NCBI RefSeq assembly: GCF_000737065.1 | Contig: NZ_AQRC01000001.1 | Coordinates: forward strand, 186,001 to 250,000 | From: Thioclava atlantica | GTDB taxonomy: Bacteria > Pseudomonadota > Alphaproteobacteria > Rhodobacterales > Rhodobacteraceae | Direction of reading: 5' to 3' | Length of the DNA stretch: 64,000 bases | Part shown: in pieces, positions 15,649 to 18,105 of the stretch | Position numbering within the stretch: position 1 is the stretch's first letter | How the letters are laid out: the number at the start of each line of letters is the position of its first letter | Notes under the pieces: model-generated | What the model was told of the DNA's origin: nothing | What the model saw: the letters and a program-made list of their open reading frames with translations, nothing else | The model's database searches: none | Made by a program: the position numbers and the translations under genes

Positions 15649-15656
15649 AAAAGAAA
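15649..15656. repeat. Left copy of the 8-bp target-site duplication of the IS1595 element
   Basis: AAAAGAAA directly abuts the left inverted repeat. The identical octamer is found directly after the right inverted repeat at 17885-17892. An 8-bp duplication is the size expected for the IS1595 family. Confidence 0.92.
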
Positions 15657-15734
15657 GGTGGTGTCCGCAAAGCGTGTTGGCTCGCTTCGTCTATTGAGGT
15701 TTCGGCCAATATGTATCCGCCTTTCAAGCGGAGA

Positions 15735-16730
15735 ATGCCATTGCGACACCAAGATTTTCGCCACTTTCTCGATGCCCTCAATGAGCTGAACCCAGCACAG
15801 ATCGAAGATGCTCAGACGAGAATTCGCGATCTCCGGAGAAAAACCGAAGCGATCTCGGAGATCGAAGCACGAACAAGCCGCGAAGCCAAGTGCCCGTTCT
15901 GCGGCGAGGAACGTCGTCAGAAGTGGGGACGAACGCGAACCAAGATCCAGCGCTATCGTTGCGGCGGCTGCCAGAAAACTTATTCGGGCCGAACGGGGAG
16001 CGCTGTCGGACACATCCATCGTCCTGACCTGTTCATGGTCGTCCTGCGAGATATGCTGATTGGCTCCACGCCTTTGTCGGTGCGTAAGCTCGCAAAGAAG
16101 CTTGGGCTCAACAAATACACGGTCTGGCGCTGGCGAATGCTGGTCTTCTCGATCATCGAAAACCGTGTGACGCCAGCCTTCTCCGGGATCATCGAGGCGG
16201 ATGAGACTTATCAACGCGAGTCCCGGAAGGGATCTCGTGAATGGGTGCGGCACGCTGCCGATCCGCTGAATGTCCCCGCGCCGCCGCGCCCCAGATGGGA
16301 GGATTTCACCTCCCAGGGGTTAAAGATGATGAGGGGGCTCTCGAGGTGGCAGCTTCCCATCCTCACAGTTGCCGACAGGGGCGGCGCGAAGCTCTTCCAG
16401 CGCCTGGCGAACCACGCAGGCGCGACGCTGCAAGATGCGATGACGCCCTTGGTGCCTCGAGATGCAGTGCTCTGCTCAGATGGGGCCGCTGGCTATTCCA
16501 AGATCGCGTCGGCAGGCGGTATCGAGCACGTTGTGCTGGGCAGCAAACCGGGAACGCGTGTCGCCGCAGGCTGCTATCACATCCAGAACGTGAACTCGCT
16601 CCATGCCCGCTACAAGAAGTTCATCAAGCCCTTCTGCGGACCGGCTTCAAAGAATCTCAACGGGTATATCCGTTGGCTGGAGCTGAGGTTGGCGGGCGCA
16701 AGGCCTGCAGACGTGATACGAGGTTCATAA
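15735..16730 (+). CDS. IS1595-family (ISXO2-like) transposase
   Basis: A 331-residue transposase. The N-terminal zinc ribbon has two Cys pairs (C53/C56 and C76/C79) and is followed by a helix-turn-helix (LSVRKLAKKLGLNKYTVWRWR). The ISXO2-like DDE core has the first Asp at 156 (IEADETY), the second at 249 (CSDGAAGY), and a conserved block after HIQNVNSLHARYKKF ending in NGYIRWLELR that supplies the last acidic or Asn residue. The ATG at 15735 has GGAG close upstream; an in-frame ATG at 15711 is an alternative. The open frame extends further upstream but crosses the inverted repeat, so that part is not coding. It appears full length. Confidence 0.93.
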   Translation: MPLRHQDFRHFLDALNELNPAQIEDAQTRIRDLRRKTEAISEIEARTSREAKCPFCGEERRQKWGRTRTKIQRYRCGGCQKTYSGRTGSAVGHIHRPDLFMVVLRDMLIGSTPLSVRKLAKKLGLNKYTVWRWRMLVFSIIENRVTPAFSGIIEADETYQRESRKGSREWVRHAADPLNVPAPPRPRWEDFTSQGLKMMRGLSRWQLPILTVADRGGAKLFQRLANHAGATLQDAMTPLVPRDAVLCSDGAAGYSKIASAGGIEHVVLGSKPGTRVAAGCYHIQNVNSLHARYKKFIKPFCGPASKNLNGYIRWLELRLAGARPADVIRGS

Positions 16731-16810
16731 AAAGATGCTGACGATGGCCTATGTCTCACCAAAATCCACTTTGCCTTTCAAAACGCACTCACGAGAGTTA
16801 GTTTTCACCA

Positions 16811-17275
16811 ATGACTGTAAGTTCTTACATCTCCACGTTGAGATCAAAGATTGGCAACGATCTTCTCTTGATTCCGAGTGTGGCAGCGCTCATTCACGAT
16901 CGGCACGGACGGCTGCTTCTTCAAAGAAAAGCTGGCCCGGAAGGTTGGAGACTCCCGCCTGGAGGCATTGAGCCTGGTGAAACCCCGAACGATGCCCTTC
17001 GGCGCGAAGTGCTCGAAGAAACTGGCGCGGAAGTCCTCAATGCTGACCTCGTATCAGTATTGGGAGGAGAAGCATTTCGTTACCGATATCCCAACGGGCA
17101 TTTGGTGGAATATACGGTGATCGTCTTCAAATGCGCGGTGGCACCGACGGATTCTCCCTGCATTGACACAGAGCCCCAGGAGCTTCGATACTTTTCGGCA
17201 GCTGACATGCCAAATCTTGCGCTTCCCTATCCCAAGGCGCTCCTGTTTTCAGGGCAACATCGATCCCCTGAATAG
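16811..17275 (+). CDS. Nudix hydrolase (IS passenger gene)
   Basis: A 154-residue protein with a complete Nudix box: GGIEPGETPNDALRREVLEETGA matches G-x5-E-x7-REVxEExGA. It is preceded by the usual strand LLLQRKAGPEGWRLP. Nudix enzymes hydrolyse nucleoside-diphosphate-linked compounds; the substrate cannot be told here. It lies 80 bp after the transposase, in the same direction and inside the element ends, so it moves with the element. Its codon use is lower in GC than that of chromosomal neighbours, pointing to an outside origin. Confidence 0.9.
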   Translation: MTVSSYISTLRSKIGNDLLLIPSVAALIHDRHGRLLLQRKAGPEGWRLPPGGIEPGETPNDALRREVLEETGAEVLNADLVSVLGGEAFRYRYPNGHLVEYTVIVFKCAVAPTDSPCIDTEPQELRYFSAADMPNLALPYPKALLFSGQHRSPE

Positions 17276-17334
17276 ACCGGAACGCGGTTGCGGGCGAACG
17301 CGGCGCCGGCAATCGACAGCTAGAGTGAGGTAAC

Positions 17335-17778
17335 ATGATTGAGATAAGGCAAGCGACGGATGCCGATGCTGATGAGGCCGTCAGCACCCTGCGCCGCTCA
17401 ATTATCGAACTCTGCGTTGCAGATCATCTGAAAGATCCGTCCGAAATCGAAGACTGGCTTGGCAACAAGACAGTCGAGACCTGGCACCATTGGATCGCGC
17501 GGGCTGACGCCGTCGTGCTGGTGGCCGAGCGGGACGGGAAGATCATCGGGGTTGGCATGACCACCTTGAGCGGCAATATCCTTTTGAACTATGTCCATCC
17601 GGACGCACGTTTTAACGGCGTCAGCAAAGCTATCCTCTCTGGCTTGGAGGACGTCTTGCGTGCGCGCGAGATCCGGCGCTGCCGTTTGGTAAGCACCGTG
17701 ACGGCCCGATCATTCTACGAAAGCTGCGGCTTCCAGTCCGAAGGCAGTGACGCGCTCTTGCTCTCGAAATCCCTTTAG
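17335..17778 (+). CDS. GNAT-family N-acetyltransferase (IS passenger gene)
   Basis: A 147-residue protein with GNAT layout: the N-terminal MIEIRQATDADADEA, the central strand VVLVAERDGKIIGVGM, the acetyl-CoA region (YVHPDARFNGVSKAILSGLEDVL; the usual RGxGxG loop is replaced by RFNGVS), and the C-terminal FYESCGFQ motif. The altered pyrophosphate loop is still common in this subgroup. The acceptor (small molecule, antibiotic or protein) is unknown. It sits between the Nudix gene and the right inverted repeat, so it is cargo of the element. Confidence 0.88.
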   Translation: MIEIRQATDADADEAVSTLRRSIIELCVADHLKDPSEIEDWLGNKTVETWHHWIARADAVVLVAERDGKIIGVGMTTLSGNILLNYVHPDARFNGVSKAILSGLEDVLRAREIRRCRLVSTVTARSFYESCGFQSEGSDALLLSKSL

Positions 17779-17884
17779 TTTCGGGGCCCGTAAAGGGCTC
17801 GGAGCGGCCAGATGACCTCGTCACATCATTAACGTAGGTTCGATCAATCCGGCGAGCAGACCAACACGCTTTGCGGACATGACC

Positions 17885-17892
17885 AAAAGAAA
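17885..17892. repeat. Right copy of the 8-bp target-site duplication
   Basis: AAAAGAAA immediately follows the right inverted repeat and matches 15649-15656 exactly. Read on the minus strand it is the U-rich tail of the hemP terminator, so the target site was that U-tract. Confidence 0.92.
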
Positions 17893-17922
17893 AGACCGCC
17901 CGGGTGCGTCCCGCGCGGTCTT
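17892..17922 (-). terminator. Intrinsic terminator of the hemP transcript
   Basis: A stem of 8 bp (17892-17899 with 17915-17922) is extended by a 4-bp inner stem across one mismatch, with a 5-nt loop. On the minus strand it is followed by a T-rich tract (17891-17885) formed by the target duplication. It lies 33 nt after the hemP stop. Confidence 0.8.
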
Positions 17923-17955: not shown

Positions 17956-18105
17956 TCATTTCGTCAGGATCAGCTTGCCCGCACGGGTGATGCGCAGCGT
18001 GTAGACCTGCCCGTCGAGTAGGATATGCGCGAGGCCGGCCTCTCCGGTCAGCACCCGCGCGTCATGCACGGGAAGCGAGGCGGCGAAACTTTCCTTGATG
18101 CTCAT
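17956..18105 (-). CDS. hemP: Hemin uptake protein HemP
   Basis: A 49-residue protein with the HemP C-terminal signature: a YTLRITRAGKLILTK end, preceded by a short strand. HemP proteins are small iron-responsive proteins needed for heme uptake in several proteobacteria, where they help activate the heme receptor or transport genes. The ATG overlaps the stop of a 56-codon upstream ORF (ATGA). The hmu transport genes are not visible in this window. No clear iron-box was found, although a near match to TGA-N9-TCA occurs around 18333-18347 upstream of the pair. Confidence 0.88.
   Translation of the reverse strand: MSIKESFAASLPVHDARVLTGEAGLAHILLDGQVYTLRITRAGKLILTK

Follow-up and report, generated by a model that had tools for sequence, protein, structure and literature searches.

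The window, that is, the whole 64-kb stretch of DNA that was analysed, contains a complete IS1595-family element of 2,228 bp (15657-17884), whose three genes, for a transposase, a Nudix hydrolase and a GNAT acetyltransferase, all lie on the plus strand with open frames (Table 1). The terminal inverted repeats of 24 nt match at 22/24 positions (92% complementary) and are flanked on both sides by the identical octamer AAAAGAAA, a perfect 8-bp duplication, which is a trait of the IS1595 family. When the 20-nt repeat core was searched for with up to 3 mismatches, only two places were found in the 64-kb window, namely the ends of the element, and 0.01 were expected in shuffles. The whole element is present as one copy in its own 3.93-Mb genome. 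The exact ends, the perfect duplication and the location of both passenger genes within the ends with intact frames were already proposed in the first-pass annotation and are confirmed here. On another contig of the same genome (C7), there is a mini-element of this kind, 774 bp long (L003, 1436-2209), with an exact 8-bp duplication, AAAAAGAA, and 51% identity over transposase residues 6-109; the strong hairpin adjoining it (-22.8 kcal/mol) fails the strict stem test described below.

Table 1. Features of the element and of its insertion site, in window coordinates.
Feature	Position	Strand	Details
Left copy of the 8-bp target duplication	15649-15656	.	AAAAGAAA
Left inverted repeat, 24 nt	15657-15680	+	Repeat comparison and core scan
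IS1595-family transposase, 339 aa	15711-16730	+	NCBIfam and alignment of relatives
Passenger 1, Nudix hydrolase, 154 aa	16811-17275	+	PF00293, 4.3e-22
Junction	17276-17295	+	Aligns by eye with the start of the L006 right repeat, then GNAT-homologue leader; putative remnant
Passenger 2, GNAT acetyltransferase, 147 aa	17335-17778	+	PF13673, 2.1e-12
Right inverted repeat, 24 nt	17861-17884	-	22 positions match the left repeat; repeat comparison and core scan
Right copy of the duplication	17885-17892	.	AAAAGAAA; minus strand is the T-tract of the adjoining terminator
Terminator hairpin	17893-17921	-	12-pair stem, one mismatch, 0 nt from T-tract, -21.9 kcal/mol
hemP, gene preceding the terminator, outside the element	17956-18105	-	

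The transposase scores 124 bits against the NCBIfam model NF033547 (cut-off 75), which places it, as initially proposed, in the IS1595 family, where seven groups are distinguished (ISPna2, ISH4, IS1016, IS1595, ISSod11, ISNwi1 and ISNha5); against the Pfam IS1595 transposase model PF12762, it scores 20.9 bits, under the cut-off of 27. Residues D164, D257 and N295 are invariant across 18 aligned relatives and may constitute a catalytic triad of the DDN type that part of the IS1595 family uses. Residues 61-92 match an N-terminal zinc-binding domain just above the cut-off (NF050000, 29 bits; cut-off 28), a domain that is ascribed to all IS1595-family groups except IS1016 in the accessible part of one account (PMC8101967).

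Residues 51-73 of the Nudix protein fit a complete Nudix box, the pattern of which is Gx5Ex7REUxEExGU, and its best solved relative is 3smd, a MutT/NUDIX family protein. The sole solved relative of the GNAT protein at E ≤ 0.001 is a predicted acetyltransferase, and the protein reaches no NCBIfam cut-off, which leaves the earlier suggestion of a cargo modifying antibiotics without backing. Both passengers resemble ordinary self-contained enzymes with predicted activities. Homologues of the Nudix protein (E ≤ 1e-40) occur in 2/394 genomes of the family, and those of the GNAT protein in 4/16 genomes of the genus (E ≤ 1e-20) and 7/394 genomes of the family (E ≤ 1e-30), the own genome being included in each count. 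A Nudix homologue with 53.5% identity is encoded on a 44,420-bp plasmid in records of Agrobacterium radiobacter/Rhizobium rhizogenes K84, so this Nudix family occurs on other mobile DNA too. Two GNAT homologues without recognisable repeats (L008 and L009) also adjoin terminator-like hairpins, as judged by eye. The passengers were also considered as defence genes; PADLOC matched the Nudix protein once (PDC-S07, 1.3e-11) and the GNAT protein not at all, and no defence function is claimed. In the same analysis of eight sibling cargo proteins, only the helix-turn-helix protein of L103 matched, weakly.

Relatives of the element and their cargo

Six peptide patterns, scanned against bacterial genomes, yielded 36 loci, which by their titles belong mostly to Rhodobacterales. 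Transposase relatives occur in 18/394 genomes of the family (E ≤ 1e-60) and 2/16 genomes of the genus (E ≤ 1e-20), own included in both cases. Plasmid records contain four relatives at E ≤ 1e-60; none was found in phage records at E ≤ 1e-20 or in viral contigs. An order-wide search of 361 genomes returned mostly genomes already met under other names. The relatives share the repeats and the 8-bp duplications, and their ends could therefore be set. The branch considered below comprises 23 elements for which both ends were found and whose transposases are 71-80% identical to that of the window in the best segments, with the window element itself (W) counted (W, L007, L025, L026, L028-L036, L038-L041, L046, L047, L049, L052, L053 and L084). 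Several of them have broken transposase frames, and their duplications are exact in 18, with one mismatch in four and with two mismatches in one.

Passengers are the rule in this branch. Measured from position 1100 to the right repeat, the cargo reaches 400 bp or more in 22 of the 23 elements, the exception being L025, and the initial view that small transposons with enzyme cargo are uncommon thus does not apply to this branch. Compared as DNA and as six-frame translations, the cargo stretches match only within L007, L028 and L029, leaving 20 mutually unrelated kinds. Their contents include Nudix with GNAT, AHSA1 with DUF4440, DUF4440, an Imm11-type immunity protein, a GST fragment with LysR, ArsR with MFS, MFS, LysR with DUF1963, and glyoxalase; those of the remaining cargoes that were scanned, a set without the 324-aa frame of L035, gave no Pfam match above cut-off. 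Cargo was also recognised in elements beyond the 23, namely a lipocalin-like gene in L055a, glyoxalase and LysR in L055b, an F420-type oxidoreductase in L045 and a helix-turn-helix protein in L103. More remotely, L089 and L103 (58-59% transposase identity) carry some cargo, and the distant relatives L095, L098, L100 and L104 are 1,134-1,151 bp long with no room for cargo, L098 being without a matching duplication. Relatives with the same ends exist in other genomes, but nearly all of them contain different cargo. As the relatives carry unrelated cargo, the Nudix and GNAT genes presumably have no role in transposition and would be passengers between the ends, the arrangement that defines a transporter IS (tIS).

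The transposase module and the cargo have separate histories, as indicated by shared modules with unrelated cargo and by one recurring cargo. L032, L034 and L041 are 92-96% identical up to position 1108-1109, approximately 34 bp past the transposase stop, and then continue into three unrelated cargoes; similarly, L007 and L026 are 90% identical up to position 1043 and differ thereafter. The 1.9-kb cargo of L032 recurs in inverted orientation, with 80-81% identity, in L057 and L058, which retain only a transposase remnant. In a transposase tree of 18 of the 20 chosen rows (L089 and L098 were left out because the motif filter found no frame), most of the branch is unresolved, and no order of cargo changes is therefore read from it. 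Direct repeats as boundaries of the cargo were also considered, given that several relatives have the motif GTCYGCTTCG just 3' of the transposase and that some have it close to the right end; the idea was rejected, as both edges match well in few elements and the window element is without the motif.

The units L057 320-2714 and L058 4982-7376 are non-autonomous, nearly identical (98.5%) and have matching flanks; the record titles name Enemella and Rhodobacter, and the actinobacterial record may be contaminated. The cargo shared by L007, L028 and L029 shows 85-99% DNA identity in records of a congener (G012), Sagittula and a Geminicoccaceae MAG, respectively, and consists of one 335-aa frame in L007 and L028, which is broken in L029. 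This common cargo is a sign of inter-genus transfer. In another congener (G001), a 497-bp unit (L118, 1028-1524) has the repeats, the duplication ATTTTTTA and one 87-aa frame, with no transposase.

Regarding the origin of the window's cargo, a mini-element of 725 bp (L006, from congener G003) is informative. It has the repeats and an octamer duplication with one mismatch, holds the terminal part of a transposase gene and the Nudix gene, and is 89% identical to the window over 699 bp; its right repeat starts approximately 20 nt past the Nudix stop. At the corresponding place, the window reads ACCGGAACGC, which aligns by eye with the start of the L006 repeat, and then continues into the leader that precedes the GNAT homologues of other genomes. 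Growth in two steps is the most likely history of this cargo, as suggested by these approximately 20 nt compared by eye. The ancestral element would have ended directly after the Nudix gene, and the GNAT gene with a new right end would then have been added by a joint inside the old right repeat at the shared TTGCGG. By this putative route of cargo capture, GNAT would have come straight from a chromosome; that it was instead delivered by a sibling element, having perhaps been cargo before, is the rather less probable source. A repeat-like 24-mer (4/20 core mismatches), itself located behind a terminator hairpin, lies directly upstream of the GNAT copy of G012 in L021/L114 and speaks for a sibling element, but it is the only one at nine other GNAT loci scanned, since at the remaining eight (G002, G010 and six of the family) no adjoining repeat was found at ≤6 mismatches.

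Insertion into terminator T-tracts

The window element lies within the T-tract of the intrinsic terminator of hemP, the strong hairpin of which is missed by a simpler scan without tolerance for stem mismatches. Sequence on the hemP side of the insertion is matched in 15/15 congeners, and none of the 14 congener hemP loci read has the element repeat at ≤5 mismatches. In at least six of the congener loci (L010-L013, L022 and L023), a hairpin with an A-tract was recognised by eye at the same place, that is, the orthologous terminator is unoccupied. These loci are not exact empty sites because the DNA farther out differs among species. The two passenger genes without the repeats were not seen at this place in the congener loci, and the GNAT homologues of three congeners are located away from the hemP site. 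In the proposed mechanism, the transposase would act on both 24-bp ends, moving all the DNA between them into an A/T-rich octamer that becomes the 8-bp duplication, here the hemP terminator T-tract. Duplication of the octamer leaves the hairpin with an adjoining T-tract; no gene is broken, and termination behind the host gene would be expected to survive the insertion.

The same arrangement was sought at the other insertion sites with a strict test, which requires a stem of at least 7 pairs with at most one mismatch, separated by 0-2 nt from an octamer that contains five or more T on the right strand. The test was passed by 10/32 distinct insertion sites, or 10 of the 23 testable by octamer, the idea of terminators having been drawn from the same flanks. 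Control octamers from the same loci (at least six A/T and at least five A or five T) passed in 100/3,184 cases (3.1%), or 28/658 (4.3%) outside long ORFs. At nine of the ten sites that passed, 0 nt separate the octamer from the start of the hairpin. An energy-based test at -15 kcal/mol gave 12/32 sites versus 29/308 controls, and the loose threshold of -6 kcal/mol gave 21/32 versus 159/308, a small contrast; the contrast therefore lies in strong compact hairpins. Among 22 further sites or single ends, seven were testable and two passed (L154 and L021); the hairpin of L021 had been seen by eye beforehand, and the strictly fresh count is 1/6. Two element pairs, L033/L033b and L055a/L055b, lie 9 nt apart at one terminator each. 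Fifteen of the 32 sites are outside ORFs of at least 100 aa, a count affected by long spurious ORFs that cover GC-rich DNA, with the window's own site counted inside.

Whether the transposase recognises the hairpin itself is evenly balanced against a mere taste for A/T-rich octamers, by which GC-rich genomes would offer few such places besides the T-tracts of terminators, and insertions within genes would be lost to selection. Such a taste would account for the 31/32 insertion octamers with at least six A/T in loci averaging 62% GC and for the 22/32 sites that fail the strict test, and tISCpe8 and MTnSag1 are described, in the accessible part of the source, as preferring AT-rich regions (PMC5704250). 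It accounts less readily for the position of the hairpin immediately at the octamer and for the low frequency of such hairpins at the matched A/T-rich controls. A separate question is whether the window element still works. It may be mobile at present, and the one observation that speaks for a past move is the exact duplication; the first-pass annotation had taken this duplication to suggest recent movement, of which the perfect duplication stands but the recency lacks support, as one genome per species was compared. The opposite reading, in which the element is dead and the passengers are host genes fixed between two old ends with a transposase no longer working, is unlikely: the single copy in the genome and the two differing repeat positions in 24 are compatible with it, whereas it is opposed by the perfect duplication, by a transposase frame that is open and retains the residues found invariant among relatives, and by the 14 congener hemP loci read, in which no element is present. 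In a joint reading, the window element is probably a tIS of the IS1595 family whose ends are used by its transposase, with an AT-rich octamer as target, Nudix and GNAT as passengers and a cargo grown in two steps.

Comparison with known transporter elements

Such elements without a full transposase are named mobile insertion cassettes (MICs). L006, L118 and L003 resemble MICs, as each has the repeats and a duplication and lacks a full transposase, and L006 and L118 hold a small gene; unlike MICs, the window element has its own transposase. Closer precedents are tISCpe8 from Clostridium perfringens and MTnSag1 (tISSag10) from Streptococcus agalactiae, which are described in the accessible part of the source as IS1595-family elements of 1.7-2.0 kb with a passenger, 25-bp terminal repeats, 8-bp duplications and AT-rich targets (PMC5704250). 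The window element likewise combines an IS1595-family transposase and passengers with an 8-bp duplication and an AT-rich target. The known elements differ in belonging to Firmicutes and in carrying one lincosamide-resistance gene, with mobilisation by Tn916 and an oriT inside the resistance gene, according to the same partial source (PMC5704250); the window element has two predicted enzyme genes instead. ISNha5, an IS1595-family tIS whose passenger is named as a transcription regulator in the excerpted account (PMC11891212), is also similar, the likeness being one of description only. In Pseudomonas, ISPa75 and other tIS66 of the IS66 family have a conserved transposition module with the passenger downstream of the DDE transposase, and 7/25 Pseudomonas IS66 members are reported with passengers; these belong to another transposase family and have three transposition ORFs, as far as the available text describes (PMC12888890).

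The tIS kind is thus already known, IS1595-family precedents included, and the window element is a further member. The open-licence literature searched gave no account of this branch, no mention of its near-universal and unrelated cargo, and none of terminators as insertion sites of this branch or of IS1595 elements. The present analysis contributes cargo as the rule of a branch, the terminator sites and the apparent stepwise assembly of the cargo. Tentatively, and as a possibility short of being probable, this Rhodobacterales IS1595 branch might be a cargo-swapping gene shuttle, in which a conserved module and ends surround a freely replaced slot, and insertion into terminator T-tracts spares host genes and places elements next to one another, whereby outer ends can pick up new cargo. 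Real pairs of near-identical transposase modules with unrelated cargo make it possible to test by what route an IS gains its passenger. If this picture is true, very small transposons with a free slot would, somewhat like integron cassettes, shuttle single genes for metabolism, transport, regulation and immunity among alphaproteobacteria and would mostly spare host genes in doing so.
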